Source: Astropecten irregularis
Taxonomy: Eukaryota > Echinodermata > Asteroidea > Paxillosida > Astropectinidae
Assembly: GCA_963971285.1 (NCBI GenBank)
Contig: OZ020262.1
Coordinates: 5,861,036 to 5,925,035 of the forward strand
Direction of reading: 5' to 3'
Length of the DNA: 64,000 nucleotides
This document shows, one piece after another, positions 1-63,020 of the stretch. How positions within the stretch are numbered: the stretch's first letter is position 1; each line of letters opens with the position of its first letter. The position numbers were made by a program, and so were the translations under genes. Under the pieces are notes generated by a model that saw nothing but the letters and a program-made list of their open reading frames with translations, had not been told where the DNA came from and made no database searches.

Positions 1-204
1 TGGACTTCGGGATATCATCTGGAGGTATTCAACCACTTGCTTGCCAACATTACTTACGCCAAGCTCCCTGTAAACACAGGGCCTGTTTGTTTCGCCGTTG
101 ATCTTGATCATCATATATGATCTTACAAATCCACTTCTCAAGCAGGATACACTAAAAATGGGATCCAGAGCAGCTTTTCGGCGCTGGGTCACTGATCACA
201 TTCC
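1..204. other. Intron of the SLC16-like gene, left window edge
   Basis: No transporter exon could be recognised on the minus strand between the donor at 576 and the left edge. The sequence is presumed intron. It contains no clear repeat apart from the family A copies immediately to its right. Confidence 0.4.
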
Positions 205-298
205 TGAAACAAACAGGGGCCACTTTCACAGAGCTGCTTAAGCAAATTATTTTTGGTGCTTAAGCAGCTCTGTGAAAATGGCCCCAGTTTGTTTCAGG
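205..298. repeat. Foldback (palindromic) copy of repeat family A
   Basis: A near-perfect inverted repeat about 94 bp long. Each arm reads from TGAAACAAAC through GGGGCCA and TTTCACAGAGC to TGCTTAAGCA, separated by a short AT-rich loop. The arms match the terminal sequence of the A-family elements found elsewhere in the window (for example near 24.0, 44.3 and 48.6 kb), but the internal part of the element is missing. It looks like two element ends joined head to head. Confidence 0.8.
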
Positions 299-490
299 AA
301 CTTTGGTAAATATAATCAGTATGCCAGCCAAAACTCCTTGTGAATGTTATGCTCAGCAAATGGGACGAATACAAGTCAAAAGCAGTAAACATCACATGAA
401 AGTTTGGTTGGTAATCTTGTTTAACGAAGGGAGACTTTTCATGCTTAAAAGCAAATTTTGTGTATAAGCAGCTCTATGAAATTGGCTCCA
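299..490. mobile_element. Family A MITE-like element, GCTTAAGCA subfamily, partial
   Basis: Directly follows the foldback and carries the internal body of family A (AGTATGCCAGCC, AAAAGCAGTAAACATCACATG, then CTTTTCATGCTTAA) and one terminal repeat ending in GCAGCTCTATGAAATTGGC. No reading frame is present. It is a non-autonomous element of unknown superfamily, identified by comparison with at least four other copies in the window. Confidence 0.75.
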
Positions 491-576
491 GGCCATGGCC
501 TAGCCAGATGACCTTTATTTGACCAGTGGCTGATAATGAGGCCGGTAACTCTTGGAGGATTGACTTGACCACCAAC

Positions 577-1497
577 CTGCTAGGACTCCGTAGGTCAGGA
601 TCAGTGTCATCAGATCCTTAGCCCGAGATGCGATGATCAAGCTGATGAATGTGATGAAACCGCTCCCCATACCCAGCTTCCGCGGACCCAGCTTCCTGCA
701 GAGTATCCCTCCAAGCGGACCTAGAAGAAAATATAATTTGTTACGTCAATTTAGGCAACAAGAAGATTGGTAGGGCTCGTGGGGTGATGGGCTCACTGGA
801 CCGGTCTGTATGGTGTTCGCAATATCTATGCAAGAGGACAAAGATTCGGGTCTTCAGGGCCCTGGTCTTGGCTGTCTTACTCTACGGTTGTTAGACATCG
901 ACTTTGACTGGGGGCCTGGGGAGACGACTCAATGTCCTCAGTACTGGGTCTCTGAGGAGGATCCTTGGGTACCGCTGGTCGGATCATGTGTCTAACTAGA
1001 GGTTACTCAGGGAGAGTCAGATGAGACCTATTGCCTGCATGATATGTGAGCGCTAGATGCGACTGTACGGTCATGTGGTTTTAAGGATAATAGTTCTAAC
1101 AAATAAAGCGAGGTTTGTTGAGTGTTGAACATCCTCTTTAAGTGCAAATGTCAACTTCAAAAACAGAGAGCTTACATACAGTAAATAATGAACTCTTTTT
1201 CAGGGTGGGAGCAATACTGATTCTGTACTGAAGGTTTAATACCCAAGGGAAATAAAATGAAAAATTATGATGACGACACTTACCCATAAAGAGGAAAGTT
1301 GCACTGTGAGCACTGCTCACTGCTCCGACAGCCATCGCCGTGGCCCCGAAGTAATCCTTCCATTCGTTGAAGAAGATCCCGGTGAATCGGACGAAGAGTG
1401 ACAACTGCAACATGATGTTGCAGCTGGCGACCACCACCCAACCCCAGCCCCCATCCGGCGGCTCCCCACGGCTGGGACTATCGGACTTCTGAGTCAT
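577..1497 (-). CDS. SLC16-family (monocarboxylate transporter-like) membrane transporter, 5' part
   Basis: A major facilitator superfamily transporter of the proton-linked or facilitative monocarboxylate type, expected in the plasma membrane. Two coding exons are visible, complement(1284..1497) and complement(577..720). The first opens with a short polar N-terminus and PPDGGWGWVVV, which matches the SLC16 signature DG(G/S)(W/F)(G/A)W at the start of TM1. It then continues through TM1 and into TM2. The donor TATGG|GTAAGTG and the acceptor TTCTTCTAG|GT join in frame to give FLFMGPLGGIL, then TM3 and TM4 ending LTYGVLAG, a familiar MCT segment. The ATG at 1497 precedes MTQKSD; an upstream in-frame ATG at 1545 exists, but splice-acceptor-like CAG sites lie between, so 1497 is preferred. 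119 codons are seen. The remaining transmembrane segments lie left of the window. The substrate cannot be told. Confidence 0.85.
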
Positions 1498-3459: not shown

Positions 3460-3610
3460 TCATCCTGGGTCGATTTCACGAAGCCCTTCAATTGATCGTA
3501 ACTTGACTTACAAAGGATAATCCATCAACATGTACGTAGGGCTGCAATGCATCATTTCCTATGGGTAGCAAATTACATGTACAATGAGTGTGGTGAAATC
3601 GACCCCGGAC
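3460..3610. mobile_element. Family D MITE-like element, degenerate copy
   Basis: Ends read TGGGTCGATTTCACGAAG and GTGGTGAAATCGACCCC, the terminal inverted repeat seen in family D copies at 27.0, 43.5 and 60.3 kb. The interior (TAACTTGAC, GATAATCCATCAACATG, GGGCTGCAATGCATCAT) is a decayed version of the same body. It sits just upstream of the BIVM first exon. Confidence 0.7.
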
Positions 3611-3684: not shown

Positions 3685-6600
3685 ATGGGGAACGTCGCTA
3701 CATCTAGGATTTTGGGCAAACAGTCCCAATCCGACGACGAGACAGACAGCTCAGGTGAAGAGGACGGTCTGAGATATGACGGCCCCCTGGATCTGGAGCA
3801 AATCATCTTGCAGCACCGTGGATCTCTTCTCGCGTTTGAGGGAGAGCCAGTTCTCCAAGTTGAGGAAGAGAAACAAACTCGGAAGGCACAGACATTTGAA
3901 ACCTATGTCATGCCAGGGAGTGTCACTCGTGAGAATGCGAGACACAGCGGCAGTGACTCGGCAGAGAGTGACGGTCACGTCGCCGAGATCGAGTCTGATG
4001 ATGGAACAGAATCAGTAGATGTGCGTCATTTGGAGACGGGGAAGCAGACCAAGCCAGTGGCCTGGGAGATAGATGTGACTGATCTTGCACTGCCCAAGGC
4101 CAAGAGGACCGCCAAAAGTAATTATAAGCTGAGTATAATGTGGCATTGTGACAGGTCTATTCATCTCCTGATTTTTGAAAATCAGTCAGATTTCACAAAT
4201 TAATTTGAGTTATGATGAAGAATGTGTTAGGAGCTGGGACCTTTAAAGAGAGGGCACTGTTTATAAAAGGCAATGATGTGGGGCACCGAGGTGATGAAAA
4301 TAATCAGGGTCACCAAGTCAAATTTCAAGGGGCACCAACCAAGGCAATGACCAGGGGCACCAAGGAAATGACCAGGAGCTTCAAGGCAATGACCAGGCCT
4401 AGGGTAGGGCACCAATGTAAAGACCAGAGGCACCAAGGCACTGAAGCAGTGGCTGAAGGGCACCAGAGAAATTGCCTTCAATTGTTTCAGGAAACAAAGA
4501 ATCCACCTATTTTCTATAGAGGATAGCCTTTTCCTTTTGAGAATGATAATCCTGCCATGCTAACATCCAAGTCCATTTTGTACATATTTTAGGAAAGGAA
4601 AATGATGCAAAAAAAAAGTAGGCATAGACAATTCTTACGCACTTGTGTTTTTGTTTGTCTTTTAGCAGTAACAAGGAGAGTGCCAAAGAAGGACATTTTG
4701 TCATCATCAATGTGTCCCACACCAGATGAAGAATCCTACATCCCACCAAGTGTGACGGTGACCTCTGCTATGATGGCAGAGAGGAAAGTCCTGGATCAAA
4801 GAAGATGGTAAGATTCCAGGTGTTCGGCAAAAAAGAAGCTTAAACCAGCCCAGCCGTCCTGGGGGCAGTCATTTTGAATTTGTGTGCGTGTCTGTGGAAC
4901 AAGAAAACTTTGACTGGAATGTCTTTCGAATAATGTACTAGTCTAAATGCAACGCACAAGTACACTGTACGAGCGAACGTTACCGGAAGCGCGTCTTGAA
5001 GGTGCGTCAGACTTTGGCCGTATTGGGCTTCGATGACGCACCTGTATAGAACAGATATAGATGTACAAAAGACGTATAAAATTTTGTGCTTTCCGTAGCT
5101 TTGTGCACAAACATGGATGCGGCCAGCAGGCATCACTCTGTACACGGAGCTAGCACTCTAGCAATTATGATATAGCGCTATGGTCCGCCGAATCTTACAA
5201 CCCATCTTCTCTAGTATGATGCTTGAGCCTTCTGACACCTCCCTCTTTCAACTCCTTCAGGTTCTGCATGTCGTGTCCCCAGTACAGCAAGTCCTGTGGC
5301 CTGTCTTCGTTGGTATCCTGCTGGAACTACCTGTTCTCCACACTTGGCGCCGGCAACCGTCGCCCCATCACCCAGGAGGAGGCTCTGACTGTCCTGGGCT
5401 TCAAGCCTCCCTTTGGGGAGATCCGCTTCGGACCGTTCACCGGTAATGGTACGCTGATGAGGTACGTAATGAGCAAAATCCTTTCCCCTCATGCCAGCTA
5501 AGACACACTGACTAGAGCGTCAAGCTCAATACCTCTTTAAGTTCTCGAGCTCTTTCAAATCATAACTTCCATTTACAAGCTTAGTACAGAATCAGTAATG
5601 ACCAAGTAAAAGTTTAAACACAATAGCAGCGAGTATGGGGTGGTTCTGAAAAGAGCCGGTAAACTCGACGTTTCGGCCAGTATGCTCTGGCTGTCTTCAG
5701 GAGAATACACTCTTTTGTGAGTGTATGTGGCTCTGAAAAGAGCCGGTTAACTTGACGTTTCGGCCAGTATGCTCTGGCTGTCTTCAGGAGAATGTTCACT
5801 ACAAAAGTAGCAGTGGGCACAAATTCTCTGAAAAAATCTAACTTTTATCAATTGCTGTCTCAAAATGGAGATTCCAGTTCTAATGAAATCTTCACGGGTT
5901 AGTTTTATGATGTTAATCTTGAAATCTGAATAATAAATAGGATGAATGCTCTTTTTCCAAAATGTCAACACAGACAATCTACTTTTGACCGTTTAACCAA
6001 AATGGATATTTGAAATTGATATTAAAGCAATGTGTATTCCAAGGGTTCGAATGAACTGACTGAAAATTCTTACTTTTTATCAATCGTCACAACTTGTTTC
6101 ACTTTTCCGTTTAGGTGGTTTAGGAAGCTGAACAACCATTATGGGACTAAGGGGAGAGCCTACCATATGTACAAGCCTGTCGGGAAAGCTTGCACGTTGG
6201 GTCGGACGCCGGACGAAGCTCTGAGACTTTTGAAGACCGGACTGCAAGATGAGGGGATGACGTTCATCTACCATTGCTGGAATCACTACTTCTGCCCGGT
6301 GGGGTTCGAAGAGGTCCCCAAGAAGGCCGTGGATGCCTACAGGTACCTACTTAGAGTACATGTTTACATGCAGTTAAAATTGCCATCATTTTTATTGCGA
6401 TCTTTTGATTTATGACTTGAAATGATTTTGTTTGATTGCAGAGGTCCACTTTCTGAGGATGAAGTTGACAACTGGATTCTGGTGGCCGACCCTAGCCGGA
6501 AACATGCAGGGATTCACTTCTTCAGGTATCTTCTTCTTCGATCAATCAATAGATCAATCAATCAATCTTTGGAGATTTCTGTTTTAAAGTAGTAGCCGGC

Positions 6601-9800: not shown

Positions 9801-10298
9801 TCAGAAGACTGGATCAGAGTCTTCTCCAGAGTCCCACCCCGAGGACTCGATCCCTCCTCCGAATTCAACGTCCACGTCATACGTGAAGCCATCCTCTCCT
9901 GGCTTCTTCCGATTCTTCTCGAAGGTCTCGTCCATGATGCTCTTCTTCTTGTTCAGAGCGCTGTCGTCCAGCTTGTTCAGATCCTCCTCGGGGTCCACTG
10001 ACAACTCCTTCTTGACCTTGTCCAGGGATTCCTCCATGCTCAGCCCTGACAGCCTCTCCTTGATGAGCATCAAGAGCTTCTCCAGCTGAATGGCGCTGAC
10101 CGACTCCAGGTACTTCTTGTGGCGGGGGTTGGACTTGAGCTCCCGGACGAAGCGGTCCACGCCCGAGCGCTTGGTGAAGTTCCTGAGCGGCATGGAGCGC
10201 TGGCGGTCCTTGCCGGTTTTCTCATCAGTGTAGGTCAGGATGAGGGTGGGCGGATCCACCCTGATGCCGCACTTCTTTGGAGTTATGTTGCTGGACAT
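9801..10298 (-). CDS. CEP19: Centrosomal protein 19
   Basis: A 165-residue protein encoded without interruption. The N-terminus carries KKCGIRVDPPTLILTY, and the middle carries MPLRNFTKRS, SNPRHKKYLESVS and QLEKLL. The C-terminal half has the family hallmark DPEEDLNKLDD, then KKKSIMDETFEKN and FTYDVDVEF before an acidic end. These blocks correspond to vertebrate CEP19 throughout, and the length is almost the same as the human protein. CEP19 sits at the mother centriole and ciliary base, works with FOP (CEP43) and CEP350, and recruits RABL2 to start intraflagellar transport. The start ATG is the first after a 5'UTR splice acceptor (CCTGACAG|AA, exon starting at 10311). The gene is transcribed away from the one described at 28.6 kb and towards BIVM. 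Confidence 0.95.
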   Translation of the reverse strand: MSSNITPKKCGIRVDPPTLILTYTDEKTGKDRQRSMPLRNFTKRSGVDRFVRELKSNPRHKKYLESVSAIQLEKLLMLIKERLSGLSMEESLDKVKKELSVDPEEDLNKLDDSALNKKKSIMDETFEKNRKKPGEDGFTYDVDVEFGGGIESSGWDSGEDSDPVF

Positions 10299-11066
10299 TG
10301 TCAGAAGGATTCTGTCAGGACGATAAAAAAAGTGTTTCAGCCTGGCTGAGTTGTCATAATTGGTTCCTCTCTAATCTCAATACTACTATCAGTATAGCCC
10401 ACATCGTGTAACTATACGCCACCTGGCAGATTTGTGGTAGGCTAGGCCTATTGTCGTACAGGTAGTAGGCCTACAGCGTTTATCAAAATATGTCTTTACA
10501 TAATAGTAATTTACTTTAAAATTTCTCAATAGATAATGTATCCACAATTTCACCCATTTTTTGTAGCACTAGCAAGTCAGCAGAAGTGTGTGTGCACCAA
10601 AAATGTTGGGTGTGTGTGTTGACTGTCATTCTTTGTGTCGCTGTAATTGACTCCCCACAATAATCCCCCCCCAAAAAAAACCCCTCAAAACCCTGCCCAC
10701 TCTGCAAACCTTGGCTTGCTGACATCAAAATGGATATCAATCAAACAGTTTATGCATGTGTTCTTTCCTCCATGGTTTATGTAACTTTTGGGTAACACCA
10801 TAACAGTGAAGTGTGATTTTCTTGTCTTTGACTTAAAATTAAAAACTTGACTCTTTGAGTTAAAAAAAATAAAACTTCCCCACAACAACGACACAAGTCA
10901 CAAGATTTAATTAAAAGACAAACGGAAACGGGGAAATACATACCTAAGTCATGACAACGTTTGCTGAGTTCGCTCACGGATATGCACGTTGATTTAAGAC
11001 AAATAATTCACATCATTCATGGAACTCTTTTCAAGATTTTAAAATCACCGGGCGCAGCCATCTTGT
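10299..11066 (-). promoter_or_regulatory. CEP19 5'UTR intron and promoter with a YY1-type site
   Basis: On the minus strand a candidate noncoding first exon ends at 10944 with donor CTTAG|GTATGT and would join the acceptor before 10311. Just upstream, at complement(11051..11065), lies CAAGATGGCTGCGCC. This matches the YY1 motif AAGATGGCKGC, commonly found at the start site of housekeeping and ciliary genes. Sequence beyond 11.07 kb turns AT-rich. The start site itself is inferred. Confidence 0.55.
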
Positions 11067-13075: not shown

Positions 13076-13960
13076 GGTAGGCCGACCTCAATCCATCTTA
13101 CTCCATGCTCCTACTAACTGACACAATTACATCACAGTTCAAACATTACACACACACTCTGCCCTCCATTAATGAACACATGTCATTCATAGGTGTATAA
13201 TACAACGGGACCAATTAGCATAGGACTGTAATGTATCGATTTTCAAAGCGATAAATAATATTGTTCCCTTGCCCATCAAATATCCACTATTTACCCAATG
13301 CCCGGGCATAATGAGAAGAGTGTTTGCCAGTTAGGGCATAATGTAAGCCTTGCTGTGAAAAAACATAATCACGCCAAGGCAATGACTGTCTACACACCTC
13401 AGAGTAATTTTTAGAAGACAGACGATTGTGCTGTGTTCTGGACAGAAAAATGTCTACAAATGTTGAGGCTGGTTTTCTATAATGAGAACGGCTAACTCGT
13501 TAAGCAATGAACAAGTTTCACTCTGCATAATTATGGAATAAGAAACGAAGGCTTGCATGCCACACCAAAATGGGAATGCCACTTCGTTAAAACTGCTTAA
13601 CGTACTCAGGGCTTTGCTTGCTCATCTTTGCTAAGAACCGACCGGACTCGAGTCTGAATCTGCTAATTCGTCTTAAACTGCGCTGGGATCATTTTACACC
13701 AACTTTCCACGGAACATTGTGGCACCGTAATTTCCCAAGCAACCTGTACCGTCCGCTGAGCGAATCCTGCCGGGAATCATGACGACGAGGCACGCTCTTA
13801 CTTCTCGGCGGCAACGTGGAACTTCATTTAATGTTGTGAATGGCAAACGGGCAATAGGTGTCATGTAAGTAAACCAAATTGATGTAAAGCGCTTTTGCAA
13901 GAACATGCTTATAATGTAAAGTTTACTCTTGACAGGAAAGTAGTTTATATATTTATTTTT
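13076..13960. other. Intergenic DNA without recognised features
   Basis: Mixed-composition sequence. No coding exon or repeat from the window's families was recognised. Confidence 0.35.
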
Positions 13961-13964
13961 TTAC

Positions 13965-14110
13965 TTCTCCTGATGACGACTAGAGCAGGCTAGTCGAAAC
14001 GTTGAGACCTTACGAGAAGTGCGAAAGTACAAACGATTCTTACATGGTGTTTCCGCAAACCGATCCACATACCAATTGTCACCATGCAAAGCCGCAAATC
14101 TTTCTTATTT
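13965..14110 (+). mobile_element. Retroelement end with intact type II hammerhead-like core
   Basis: Positions 13970-13999 read CTGATGA, then CGACTAGAGCAGGCTAGTCG as a six- to seven-pair stem, then GAAA, followed by CGTTGAGACC and TTACGAGAAGTGCGAA. This is the exact hammerhead core order. The downstream flank (ACGATTCTTACATGGTGTTT, CCGCAAACCGATCCACATAC) is shared with copies at 44.6-44.8 and 58.4-58.6 kb, so it belongs to a dispersed element. A Penelope-like or retrozyme origin is inferred. Confidence 0.6.
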
Positions 14111-15922: not shown

Positions 15923-16197
15923 CACCTGAGCCAGCGCATTTGTTCACTGTACTCTCAATTCAAAAAGCATTTAGTGAAATGCTTATCTACCTCGGTGAAG
16001 GGTAATATAATTATTAAATAATTTTGCATAAATTTAACTAGTAGGTATACGAAAAATGATTAATTGTTTAAGCACTGTCTCGATTTTGAAACTTGGCTGC
16101 CAGTCGCAAGCCGCGGTCCTATGATAACTTCGGGCTACAGGCCAACGCAGTGTTGTGTCAGTTTGTAGTGGTTTAGCCGCAAACTTTCATCAGTTGC

Positions 16198-16240
16198 CTG
16201 ATGAAGGCTAGCAGTTCCAGCAGCTGAAACGTCGCTACCA
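16198..16240 (+). mobile_element. Hammerhead-like core, degenerate stem II
   Basis: CTGATGA at 16198-16204 and GAAACGTCG from 16226 are intact. The intervening AGGCTAGCAGTTCCAGCAGC gives only a weak, bulged pairing. It is likely a decayed relative of the other CTGANGA...GAAAC fragments. Confidence 0.4.
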
Positions 16241-44569: not shown

Positions 44570-44815
44570 GTAAGAAAAGTGGTATGTGGATCGGTAAGCG
44601 GAAACACCATGTAAGAGTCGTTGGTACTTTCGCACTTCTTATTTCGTTCGCACTTCTCGTAAGGTATCAACGCTTCGACTAGCCTGCTGAAGTCCATCTG
44701 ATGAGGACTAGAACAGGCTAGTCGAAACGTAGAGACCTTACGAGAAGTGCGAACAAAATAGAAGTGCGAAAGTACGAACGAATTTTACGTGGTGTTTCCT
44801 CAAACGGATTCACAT
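44570..44815 (+). mobile_element. Head-to-head retroelement ends with type II hammerhead-like core
   Basis: On the plus strand 44698-44727 reads CTGATGA, then a GACTAG/CTAGTC stem around AACAGG, then GAAACGTAGAGACC. Immediately left, an inverted relative reads CTTCTCGTAAGGTATCAACG and CTTCGACTAGCCTGCTGAAG. The outer flanks of both arms share GTGCGAA and the block ending in a GGTGTTTCC/GGAAACACC segment. The arrangement is therefore a large imperfect palindrome of two element ends. Confidence 0.6.
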
Positions 44816-51772: not shown

Positions 51773-54700
51773 ATGGGTGAGTCTGATTTTTCTGGAAATC
51801 AAAAGAATCATATCATGATTTTTCAATTCAATCCTTTTTCTCGAGTTAAACACTAAAATGTCGCGATTTTCTTGTAAATTTTCATCGCAATGAACATGTA
51901 TGAGGATACCGAGACTATAAATTCGGAAATGTTAATTTTTTAGTCAAATTAGTAATTCATTCTCTTCATTTCAATCATTGATGAATATTGACTAAACCCA
52001 ACTGAAGATATAAAAGTTCAGAAAATACTGAAATTGTTAAGAAAAAACATCTTTTTGTTTGAAAAATTAGTTGTTACTCTTGCTTATTTGAATGGAAGTC
52101 TAAAATTAAATATTTCAAGAAATATGTTTCAGCTTAAACAATTTGTGTTGCCAAAAAAAGAGAAAATGTCAGATTTTAGTATAGTAATCTAAATAAATCA
52201 CTTAATCAATGACTATTATTTTGTTATGCTATGATTGTTCCTTAATTTGTAGCTAGGGCTAGGAAAATCATTTCATCAAAGAAATAATCTTGACTCTTAT
52301 TCTAGGCGAAATTTCTATTTCATTTCTATTTCACCAAAAAGCCATCAGATTTTGTGCTTTTTACATGTCAAATGTCATACGAGTAAATTATTTAACAAGT
52401 CATTTTTAAGCAACCGTTTTGAGAAAAATAACAGCCTAAATTATTTGGAGGTAGGAGTTAGGAGGGCCTGACGCGTTTTGATCCTAGCAGAGTCTTTTTT
52501 TAAGGCTAAATATGTTTCTTTATATTAGTTATATTTGATTTTTGTTCTGAAACAAGTTCTGTACAAAAGTCGCGTGATACACTGAAACGCTTAAAAGCAG
52601 GCACACTTAGAAATTAAATGACAATTCTAATTAGAAAACAGAGAAAATAACGAAAATGATTGAAACAAAAGCATTTCCAATAAAAAAATCCATCCTGATT
52701 TTGTTTTCGTTTAAACGCTAACCAATCCGTTACCTAGCAACAGGTTTCAGCCTTAAAATCTCGAATAAAATGATTGCCTGTGTTTTTCGTATAGATCACA
52801 TTGTCTTAAGTTAATTAATTTCATTCGAGTTTTGTTATATTACAGTGTTTATCCATTTGAGAAAAGTCGAGTAAATTTGTTTCTCGAGAGATTTTGTTTT
52901 AATTGCATCTACATTAATTCGTGCTGTAACAGTATGCAGCTGCGTTTATGCATCATGCATCACGCGCTATCGTTTGTGTACGTGAATTTCGCGTTGAGAA
53001 GGAATCTGTATTTTTGTCCAAGTCGACTAACTTGACGATTTGGTCTTTATCGCTGTTGATCGCTTTTGATCAAAAAACGTATTCAAAATGTCATCAAAAT
53101 ATCTTGAAATTTGAATAAATGGAAATCTTTACTGCCTTTTCCTTTTTTGCTACACTAGGCCGCACTCTGCCGAATCCGGTACCATGTAAAGTCTGTGGCG
53201 ATAAGAGTTACGGGAAACATTACGGCGTGTACTGCTGCGACGGCTGTAGCTGTTTCTTCAAGCGGAGTATCCGACGCAACATGCGGTATACTTGCATCGG
53301 TAAGGGGAACTGCCTGGTTGACAAGGCTAGAAGAAACTGGTGCCCGTACTGCCGGCTGAAGAAATGCTTCGGCGTCAACATGAACAAAAATGGTAAGATT
53401 GTAGAGAAGCTTGACTTATGCCCTCAAATACTCCAATAATTGTATAATACCTTTGGCAAAATCCTTGCAAAATTCGTGTCCTGGCTCGATTTCACGAAAG
53501 GCAACATGCGTATCAATCTCAGTCACTCTCCTGAAGACGAACACAGCACACTGTTCGGAACGTCGAGATAATACCAACGGTTCTTCTCAGAACCACACAC
53601 TCTTAAAGAAGAGATTACATGGTGTCACCGCAAACCTACCTTCTTTCAATTTTTAATTGCTAAGCAAAGTGTGATGTCACAATACTATAGCTACTATGGA
53701 AACATGAAAAACTCATCTAAAAGATGAATCGCAAATCTTTGTTATCAAAACCACTGTTTTTTTTATAACATAAACCTTGAGGCCTTCAAGATGAAGGCCC
53801 GCTAGGACCGAAACGTCAGGCCCTCCTAACTATGAGCATTACGTATTTCGAGTCATTATTTTGATTGAAATGAAGTTTAAACCATATTTATTTTATTGCA
53901 TTCATTTCATATTTCGTTGATAGATTTCAATCAATTTTGAAATCCAATTGGAACGATTTCGCCAAGTTTGTATCTTTCCCCTTTATTATTCCAAAACTTC
54001 AAAGAGATAAGTATCATCTAAGAAACGGAATGAAATAGACAGTAAAATATGTGCGTAAATTAAGGATAGACTTTAGAAAAACAAGCGTTTTAATTTGCAT
54101 TAGTGTATATGTGATAACGCATGCTGGTTCATTTATAAAATGGCTATTCTTTTTTAAGTTTGATACACAGAGGAATGCGAATTTGCAAATGATTATAATT
54201 ATACATTTTTGGGTGGTTCCTAATAATGTTTCCGGGCAAAATCGTTAAAGATACTTTGGGCGTTTACGAAACGGAGGCTCAGGCTCCGTCTCAGGCTCCG
54301 GCTCCATTTTCCTGAATCCATTTTGAGTATCAAAATAGAGGCTTTTGGCTGTGGTTCTGAAGTAGATTCTCTAGTTTGAAAGGGAAAACAGAGCTTCAGC
54401 TTCAATGACAAATCACAAGCTATATTTTCAGCATATGGATGTCAGAGCTGGAGCCTGAGCCTGAGACTGAGCCACCGTTTCGTAAACCCCCTGTGATTAA
54501 TGCTCATGTTTAAATTTGGTATGTAAGTATCATGTGATAGTGCAGATTTGATAAAAACCAAAACCACAGCAATTTAGCGTATACGTAACTCAATGTATGG
54601 AACATTTGCATATACCATTACGTAGAGAAATAGGATTTATATTTTGCAATGCTAATTACAATACAAGCATCACAGGATATTGAATTCATCGGCTTTCCAC

Positions 54701-57700: not shown

Positions 57701-60700
57701 ACAACACATTGACATTTTGATTGTTACATTTCATGGTTAGCAAATTTTTGTGCTAAGCAGGGCCGTGAAATTAGCCCCAGGTTCTTTTGTTTTTGTTCAA
57801 ACACGGGTGTAGCAAAAAAACTATTTTCACGACAGCGCTAGCTGCGCATGCGGCATTGTTGAATTATAACATAGGGTCTGTGTTAAGTTTGAACAGCGGC
57901 TATCTGCCAACCAATGGTGGACTATGCCTGGTACCCGGGCAATGATTTGCTATGGAGGCAACCAGGCAAATATCCGCTAGCGGTTGACAAAATGTTCCTT
58001 AATGGAACTCGTATAGTTTTCTAGTCGCAATACAAAGTACCGACTATGCTCACAAATTATACCAAATTGTTCCGGCGAAGTATGCGATTTTTGAGTAGTC
58101 TGTAAATCTTGAACGAGTAAAAAGTGAAGTAAAAAACACACCACAATTTGGTCAAGTTGTCCCGATCTTCTCTGTGATCTTACGTTAAGTGCTGAATCTC
58201 CACAAAGCAAGCCAATCCATTTTATTGGACGAATACGAATGTAAGGGCCTTTTCCAAACTTCGGCTCCGGCTCAGGCCCAGGCTCCGGCTTCGTCTCTGT
58301 CAACAACCATAACACGCTGAAAACAGGATTGCCAACCAAATTTTCAAGTGATGTTAACTGCTTTTGACTTGTATTCTGCATCCTCGTTAGGTATCAACGT
58401 TTCGATTAGCCTGCTCTAGTCCTCATCAGGAGACCCGGGTCTCAGGTCCTTACGAGAAGTGCGAACGAAATAGAAGTGCGACAGTACGAACGATTCTTAC
58501 ATGGTGTTACCGCAAAACCGATCCACATACCAATTGTCACTATGCAAAGCCTAAAATCTTTCATTATCATTATTATTTATTTCTGGTAATGACACCAAGG
58601 ATTCCTTAAAAGTGCCCTAGGCACTGTAGCTCGCAAGCCTGATGAAACCTTTTATGGAAAGATGATGAGAAGAAGATACAGTTTTAGAGGTGGGAGGAAA
58701 ACCCCAGAGTAATATTCTGGGTAAAACCCACGGAATCAGGCAGGGACTGAAAACCCAATCCACTTGTGAACTGAGCCGGACTTGAACCCGGTCCACAGAG
58801 GTGAAAGGCGAGGAAAGAACCGCTACACCAACCTGACTTATGATTATATTAGTTGATTCAAACGACTGAGTATCGTCTTCTTATTTTGGATGTTTTCCCC
58901 CACAGCAGTCCAGGAAGAACGAGGACCCCGGAAAAAGAAACCCCAGCAAAAGACCGACGCCACGGGCCCCAACGGTGAGCTGTGCTGCCAGGGGACGAGC
59001 GGGGCCAGCCACGCCCGTGCCCTGGCCACGGCCGCCGCAAAAGCCAACGCCTCCAAGCCGTCTTTCCGTCCGTTCCAGCCCTGGATCAACAAGTCGCAGG
59101 GCTGGAGGGAACACCACGCAGCGGCTGCTGCGGCTGCCGCCGCCGCGCATGCCGGGGGACCGGGCAGCGCGTTCCGTGTGGTGGCCGTCAGGAGTGGACT
59201 GTTCCCGGGCGGCGTGCCGCCACATCTCTCGCCTACTCTGCCGTTCGATGCCGCGGCAGATCGGGTGATGGTGCCCACACTACCTTCACAGTTTGCCGGT
59301 CTAAGAATGGAAGACAGAGCTGGTTAGTGTTTTATATTGAAACCAAAAAATCAAACTAATTGCAGGATGATTTATGCAAATTTTGCCAAATTCTCACAAG
59401 CCCCAAAATGTATGTTTGACTAAGAAATACAGAAGCAAAATCACAAAAAACTGTGTTTGACTAAGAAATACAGAAGCAAAATCACAAAAACTCAAAAAAA
59501 CAAACATAGAAAACCCAAAAAGAAAAACTCGAAAAAAGAAGAAGCGAAAATCCACAAACAAGCCCAAAACTTCTTAAAAAAAACCCCGAAGTTTTTGAAT
59601 TACTTAACTGAAGTTTGCATCGTTTTGAGTGATTTTACACTATGGCCCAGAGTGCAAACCACTCCAAAAGAGTAAAATATCCACCACTCTTTTTCAAGAG
59701 CCATATGAAGGACAACTCGATTTTCAACGAGTGGTACTTTTCACTCTGTTGCATTTAGAGAGTTGTTTTACAAGTCTATTTCTTTGTTTCTGTGTCTTTT
59801 ACAGCTCTTCTCGCCAAACGGTCGGCAGAGAGGCTGCCGTTCCCTTGGGCCAACCGTCCGACAGGTCCGGCCTCAATCCTCGCCATCCCCAACCCACCGT
59901 CCCCGAGCACCTCCATCGAGGAGATAGCCACCCATGTCCTGGTCCACGCCGTGCGGACCTCGCGTTCCGTTCAGCCCTTCCAGGCCCTGGATTCGTGGGA
60001 CCAGATCTCCGTCTTACAGGAATGCTGGAACGAGTTGTTCCTGCTGCACGCCGCCTACTGGCCAGGGGTGGACTTCTGTGCCCTGCTCAGTCATTCCAAC
60101 CTCCGGTCGGAGAGTGGGGGAGGTGGATCGTCAAGTTCGTCCAGCGAATCCTCGGTCAGTATTAATACACACTAGGGGTGCCATGGAAAATAACTTCCTA
60201 AGCCCTACTACCATTTTGTAGTTCTCGCTTATATTGATGCTAGCCATTGTTCCCAGCCCTAAAAAAATGCTTATATCATTAGGGCTAAACCACAAGGGGT
60301 TGATTTCACGAAGCCCTACGATCGATCGTAACTCGAGTTACGAAGGATAACCCATTGTATTCTACAATTACTGTAGGGCTGCAATGCGTCTCAAGTCCTA
60401 CGATTGATACAAAGTTACGATGAGTTTGGTGAAATCGACCTCAGAGCCCCTCCCGTGAATGACATCCCAGATTGTGATCAATTTTGTAGAAGGCCTCTAA
60501 ATTCTAATAAAGAGAAGGGAGCCTTTTGACGTATTGATAAACACCGCTGCTTAGCAGGTCTGCTTAGCAGGTCTGGTTAGCAGGTCTGCTTAGCAGGTCT
60601 GCTTAGCAAGTCTGAATAGCAGGTCTACTTAGCAGGTCTTGCCTCCCCTGCGTTCACACTAGCCTCCACGTTCCACCCAAGATTCACTGAGGGAGTAGAG

Positions 60701-62942: not shown

Positions 62943-63020
62943 TTTACCACTGATGATGACCAGAGCAGGCTAGTCGAAACGTTGAGACCTTACGAGAAGT
63001 GCGAACGAAATAAGAATCTT
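62943..63020 (+). mobile_element. Retroelement end with type II hammerhead-like core
   Basis: 62950-62979 reads CTGATGA, a GACCAG/CTAGTC stem (one mismatch) around AGCAGG, then GAAACGTTGAGACC and TTACGAGAAGTGCGAACGAA. The flank matches the 14.0, 44.7 and 58.45 kb copies and is interrupted by a family A element. Confidence 0.6.

Follow-up and report, generated by a model that had tools for sequence, protein, structure and literature searches.

Layout of the locus

The stretch of Astropecten irregularis DNA analysed here, referred to as the window, is 64,000 nucleotides long and carries on its minus strand two neighbouring repeat units of one family (family A), unit 1 at 5710..5793 and unit 2 at 5631..5706. 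The earlier note had described this place as two minus-strand units 87 bp apart, each bearing CTGAAGA, a GCCAG/CTGGC stem and GAAAC, and the description was borne out in every part: CTGAAGA lies at 5787-5781 and, at a spacing of 87 bp, at 5700-5694, GAAAC lies at 5761-5757 and 5674-5670, and the GCCAG/CTGGC stem is present in both units. The hammerhead-like core of unit 1 (5751..5790, minus strand) reads CTC-CTGAAGA-C-stem II-GAAAC-GTC-AAG with a mismatched stem I, and that of unit 2 (5664..5703, minus strand) reads CTC-CTGAAGA-C-stem II-GAAAC-GTC-GAG with a stem I of 3 bp. The only two exact matches of CTGAAGANNGCCAG in the window are these units; with up to two mismatches there are nine matches against 4.6 expected, a result that is weak on its own.

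Two hairpin-forming segments had been noticed between the cores, and both are real, namely GGCTCT-TTTC-AGAGCC at 5744-5729 and ATACACTC-ACAAAA-GAGTGTAT at 5726-5705; what had been overlooked is that the first is a histone 3' stem-loop scoring above the Rfam gathering threshold. This stem-loop of unit 1, GGCTCTTTTCAGAGCC (5729..5744, minus strand), lies within a match to RF00032 at 5704-5749 (40.9 bits, gathering score 34, E 1.3e-8). Beginning 9 nt past it, CACAAAAGAG (5710..5719, minus strand) resembles the purine-rich element of the host H4 genes, and we take it to be like the histone downstream element, the U7 site. The stem-loop of unit 2 (5642..5657, minus strand) has one C-A mismatch and matches RF00032 with 23.5 bits (E 0.0005), under the gathering score; no purine element follows it, and the unit stops 11 nt past its own stem-loop.

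None of 200 shuffles folds as well as 5700-5802 (z -3.47). For unit 2, taken together with its flank, the fold is about as good as those of its shuffles (z -0.24, 77 of 200 equally good), and neither motif appears in its best fold; a family C segment at 53518-53620 (z -1.61) and a family B segment at 13955-14050 (z -1.09) are mildly below shuffles. The BIVM intron in which the pair had been placed went unconfirmed: three pieces of plus-strand ORF were compared with Pfam, and not one was named. An ORF with a CEP19-like domain (PF14933, E 3e-51) lies at 9804-10370 on the minus strand, about 4 kb from the repeats.

A dispersed, high-copy repeat family

The window units belong to a non-coding repeat that is scattered through the genome in many copies, and on this ground the idea of an isolated ribozyme pair was rejected. 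The core pattern CTGANGA-N19-GRAACGTYG occurs at 3,477 sites genome-wide, compared with two for the reversed control, and among the places listed for it the letters of family B prevail. At least 48 genome matches were obtained with a 191-bp query, a lower bound set by the scoring of 40 out of 975 first-look candidates. As read from 30 loci, an arm of about 163 nt comprises CATTCTC, the hammerhead-like core, the histone stem-loop, CACAAAAGAGATAAAT, CATGGTGTTACCGCAAACC and a further part ending in AAATCT.

Two other families share a related 3' region with these arms. Family B has the core CTGATGA-N-GACTAG/CTAGTC-GAAACGTTGAGAC and no histone stem-loop, and family C has the stem CGAACA/TGTTCG and a stem-loop altered on both sides of one pair. 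In the window, family B is represented by a plus-strand copy at 13967..14101 (with a CTGATGA core and the stem GACTAG/CTAGTC, lacking a histone stem-loop but sharing the 3' end), a head-to-head inverted (foldback) copy at 44575..44815, a plus-strand copy at 58380..58559 composed of an inverted 5' part and a direct 3' part, and a hammerhead-like core at 62947..62986 on the plus strand. The diverged family C copy at 53528..53669 (plus strand, core stem CGAACA/TGTTCG, related 3' region) carries the stem-loop GGTTCTTCTCAGAACC at 53579-53594, covered by an RF00032 match at 53574-53618 (37.3 bits, above gathering), and the purine element AAAGAAGAGA at 53605-53614, at histone spacing and on the same strand. 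Motifs of the form GATGA-stem-GAAACGTC, unlike families A-C, were also seen in the window at 16195-16235 and 53783-53825.

The hammerhead-like motif

The hammerhead-like fold is real because stem II covaries, and the window units are poor hammerheads. Stem II was compared across 60 distinct sequences, drawn from the places listed for the core pattern, which itself fixes the core letters. Pairing was found in 92.2% of cells, and both-side changes numbered 39 against 14.2 in shuffles, with none of 500 shuffles as high. Paired cells, both-side-change cells and the covariation score each exceeded 500 of 500 shuffles, while the other two of the five measures did not rise above them (both-side-change pairs, 4 against 3.1; pair types, 9 against 8.5). 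In slid controls, stem II pairing dropped to 7-36%.

An extra base stands between A9 and stem II in these 60 sequences (C 23, T 17, G 17, A 3), and A9 is not joined directly to the first stem II pair, as it is in a hammerhead. Pairing of this base with G12 was considered and rejected, 20 of the 60 being unpaired and no both-side change occurring, with G12 itself fixed by the pattern. An extra base at the A9/stem II junction occurs in a viroid hammerhead.

Both window units keep C3-U4-G5-A6-N7-G8-A9 and G12-A13-A14 intact. Stem III is absent from them except as an ACGU:ACGU dimer, and the hammerhead models of Rfam gave no match in 5300-6100 even at E<=10. With a stem I of at most 3 bp and the extra base after A9 besides, the reading of the window pair as hammerheads is not supported. 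The earlier note had named observations that would tell against its ribozyme; among these, the lack of a covariance-model match and of stem III was indeed observed, whereas compensatory changes in stem II and an NUH cleavage site (GUC) were both found. A genome-wide search with RF00163 was uninformative, with no match in this genome or in any control genome.

Decay of the motif is evident among 29 family-A units, made up of similarity-chosen loci and the window units with one family-B row left out. GAAA is kept in nine of them and absent from 20, and 14 have the CUC/GAG stem I. All of CUC, CUGAAGA, GAAACGUC and GAG are intact in two (window 5703 and L004); without the requirement for the ACGU palindrome, L007 and L008 bring this count to four. 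When folded, unit 2 in hammerhead shape lies within 0.2 kcal/mol of its minimum and unit 1 forms no stem I. Dimers held by the ACGU helix are 2.7 (unit 1) and 6.0 kcal/mol (unit 2) worse than the free dimer minimum. In the family B and C sequences the imposed ACGU pairs failed to form; their monomers in hammerhead shape lie 3.9 and 3.5 kcal/mol above their minima.

As a candidate self-cleaving tandem repeat, the window pair is surpassed by the array at locus L053, where family B units form a 54-bp x 21.1 tandem array (63-1211, minus strand). It contains two Hammerhead_3 matches (28 bits, E 0.0017, under the gathering score of 48.5), in which stem I is closed and stem III is built from the ACGU of adjoining units. 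Together with the covarying stem II, this sub-gathering match upholds the placing of the motif in a hammerhead-like lineage, and a hammerhead ancestry is credible for it; the computed evidence does not support self-cleaving activity of the window units.

The histone-type 3'-end signal

The exact 18-nt core GGCTCTTTTCAGAGCCAC occurs at 619 sites in the genome and the reversed control at none; host histone genes are among these sites, and most of those listed are dispersed. Inside the window a strict stem-loop grammar is confined to these repeats, and 20 other stretches, 200 kb in all, contain no instance of it. Two genes of the C18 cluster, L051 and L052, recognised as H4 by eye, have the 3' ends AAACCGGCTCTTTTCAGAGCCACCCCTACTTCAAAAAAGAGATAAAA and AAAACGGCTCTTTTCAGAGCCACCACATTTTCAAAAAAGAGATGAAG; the H4 protein is complete in L052, and the frame of L051 departs from the H4 sequence near its end. 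The corresponding region of repeat copy L002 reads TTAACCGGCTCTTTTCAGAGCCACCCCATACTCACAAAAGAGATAAAT. Among the 3' ends listed for the H4 cluster on C18, two types succeed each other in turn for the most part.

In eighteen repeat copies that were selected with a stem-loop expression, 35-44 of 50 positions are identical to the first H4 end (L051) and 31-42 of 50 to the second. RF00032 matches at the gathering score were obtained in six of nine sources, comprising four repeats (39.1-43.8 bits), L052 (41.3) and L051 (37.6), and L010, L012 and L023 gave none. The purine element expression is matched by 14 of the 18 copies, and the element is present in unit 1 and at 53605-53614 as well. Downstream of the stem-loop, AAGA occurs in 19 of 37 stretches, compared with 3.9 in letter shuffles, and is missing from 18; these stretches are related by descent and may include host genes, and a final T was barred by the pattern. 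On C1 and C8, 16 of the 74 exact sites also have ANAAGA at exactly +11, as counted by eye. At the third pair of the stem-loop, the 100 places listed show C-G 81 times, U-A 13, U-G 3 and a mismatch 3 (also by eye), host genes being included, at least 22 of the C18 cluster if all of these are histone genes (two were read).

The repeat and the histone 3'-end signal (RF00032 plus downstream element) are alike in GGCUCUUUUCAGAGCC, the AC-rich flanks, ACCC and CACAAAAGAGAU at H4 spacing. They differ in that the signal of the repeat sits in a dispersed mobile element rather than after a histone gene, and the longer repeat copies, unlike histone genes, continue with element sequence past it. What the repeat carries is almost letter for letter the signal found at the end of histone messages, and the sequence hints that a genomic parasite may imitate histone RNA. 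A search for the U7 gene with RF00066 was uninformative, giving no match in this genome or in the control genomes. Among open-licence papers, judged by titles and the starts of abstracts, none was found that brings the histone stem-loop together with hammerheads or with transposable elements. The term hammerhead ribozyme does occur in a tunicate genome paper (PMC8704543).

Insertion anatomy

Single-arm copies are about 100-190 bp long. Clear direct repeats flank five of them, L003 (11 bp), L007 (13 bp), L015 (15 bp, one mismatch), L022 (13 bp, one mismatch) and L041 (13 bp, one mismatch), and such variable-length target-site duplications of 11-15 bp accompany elements of 103-141 bp whose 5' ends lie 2-8 nt upstream of the stem I CTC. 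In the same five copies, the distance from stem II to the 3' end is about 89-122 nt. Best repeat scores averaged 6.4 in 31 elements whose boundaries were set by hand, as against 4.97 +- 0.19 for mispaired flanks; seven elements scored 8 or more, and the 24 below 8 have no clear duplication.

The 3' ends fall into two main classes about 27 nt apart, 25 of 43 at model position 57-60, 13 at 29-38 and five between. Where the 191-bp query had a second match near a first, seven of eight such pairs were head-to-head inverted and one was direct. The insertions of L003, L007 and L022 extend beyond the purine-rich element, and their templates were therefore not made by histone-type cleavage.

Comparable behaviour is described in PMC11167929 for a Penelope-like element of Anolis. 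Its two reverse transcriptase start sites are separated by an optional tail of 30-40 bp, it cuts and extends both DNA strands, and its copying starts 111-118 nt inside an ORF whose beginning lies at hammerhead stem II; the RNA that was inserted in vitro was mainly RNA left uncut by the hammerhead. The spacing of about 27 nt between the two 3' ends compares with these published 30-40 bp. By analogy, the repeat units fit a Penelope-like element in their two 3' ends, their head-to-head copies, the distance of about 89-122 nt between stem II and the 3' end in the five clear copies, and the retained hammerhead motif, and the earlier guess at a Penelope-type source agrees with the duplications and the two 3'-end classes. 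No ORF for a Penelope-like reverse transcriptase or GIY-YIG domain was recognised by eye among 40 ORFs of at least 160 aa in the DNA of the loci retrieved, as viewed over their first 60 residues, two of them also by profile search. One of these ORFs, in L049, resembles a non-LTR reverse transcriptase.

Weighing the alternatives

That the two units are an active, retrozyme-like pair of tandem self-cleaving hammerheads, the cutting of a dimer releasing an 87-nt RNA that may circularise, appears improbable. The intact CUGAAGA/GAAA/GUC core of both units, the near-minimal hammerhead shape of unit 2 and the Hammerhead_3 match of the sister array speak for it, as do the minimal, helix-III-less hammerheads that, according to PMC7761336, may work as dimers. 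They are opposed by the failed model search over 5300-6100, the mismatched stem I of unit 1, the extra base before stem II, the decay of the family-A units and the cost of the ACGU-helix dimers, and the ends of the insertions do not coincide with the cleavage site. Equally doubtful is a MITE or foldback DNA transposon, with the arms as terminal inverted repeats and the hairpins as DNA structures for a transposase. Duplications of about 9-11 bp would fit Mutator-like elements too, and head-to-head arms prevail among close pairs and recur at 44575-44815; against this, the clear duplications range in length between 11 and 15 bp, the two arms of an element do not stop at the same place (L044, L041 at 1817-1951, L025), and a MITE leaves covariation around a fixed core unexplained. 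In its simple inverted-repeat form the DNA transposon was rejected, since the single-arm copies carry duplications of their own.

The histone stem-loop might, on the other hand, be a mere passenger, taken up by chance from a histone gene and carried along without a role, a possibility that we rate as real and still rather unlikely. Twenty-five consecutive nucleotides spanning the stem-loop are identical between the H4 end of L051 and the hand-made repeat query, family B spreads without a stem-loop, and many copies have decayed, all of which such a capture would accommodate. It is countered by family C, which keeps its stem-loop through the compensatory change GGUUCU/AGAACC and has a purine element at histone spacing, and by the third stem-loop pair, where U-A takes the place of C-G at some of the listed places, host genes among them.

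A probable Penelope-type retroposon

The feature is probably best explained as two tandem copies of a short, non-coding, non-autonomous retroposon, for whose movement a Penelope-like reverse transcriptase is the likeliest agent; the element bears a hammerhead in decay and, like the host's histone genes, a histone-type 3'-end signal. This retroposon reading starts from what is observed, namely the anatomy and copy number of the repeat, the covariation of stem II, the similarity to H4 3' ends, the duplications at some copies and the two main classes of 3' end.

The closest known counterparts are the minimal type I hammerhead motifs of Penelope-like elements, reportedly described by Cervera and de la Pena in 2014 and by Lunse et al. 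in 2017. Like the repeat, these have no helix III and occur as thousands of dispersed copies and in tandem pairs; they also share its dimer-only geometry and an adjoining Penelope-type 3' initiation region. The repeat differs, in a comparison made by description only, in the extra base between A9 and stem II, in the absence of GAAA from most family-A units, in the histone stem-loop and purine element just downstream, and in that no reading frame was seen. In PMC7761336, the role of hammerhead motifs in Penelope-like elements is called a mystery.

The metazoan non-LTR retrozymes, as presented in PMC7229834, resemble the repeat in their short non-coding tandem units, hammerhead-type motifs and duplications of more than 4 bp. 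They differ in having units of 150-450 bp, canonical type I hammerheads and circular RNA, compared with 87 bp and a degenerate motif here and 54 bp in L053. The word histone does not appear in the main text of PMC7229834.

Each unit begins a few bases upstream of the hammerhead-derived motif, which is followed in families A and C by the stem-loop and purine-rich element and then by a 3' region with two alternative ends. If the retroposon reading is right, the enzyme would bind the element RNA and prime from cut target DNA, beginning its copy at either of two 3' positions, and priming on both strands would give head-to-head copies. The hammerhead motif of family A may be a relic or a weak, dimer-dependent ribozyme. 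Judging from sequence, the histone-type signal could let the transcript bind SLBP and probably U7 snRNP, whereby some transcripts would be poly(A)-free and linked to S phase, and the transcripts that escape histone-type cleavage would be those that are copied. Against this reading stand family B, which has no histone stem-loop, the 18 of 37 stem-loops without AAGA downstream, unit 2, with its mismatched stem-loop and missing purine element, and the many single elements in which no duplication is clear; the inserted copies that run on beyond the purine element speak against the signal being required for making the template.

A more tentative proposal, which we consider unlikely as it stands, is that of a selfish RNA imitating replication-dependent histone pre-mRNA, in which the stem-loop, the U7-type element and the hammerhead-type motif would tie a miniature Penelope to S phase and SLBP, outside the poly(A) pathway, and would time its insertion to DNA replication. 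In practice, whoever scans such genomes for histone genes by their stem-loops will also pick up many mobile repeats. A repeat that pairs a hammerhead-type motif with a host-like histone 3' end offers a testable link between retroelements and S-phase histone RNA.
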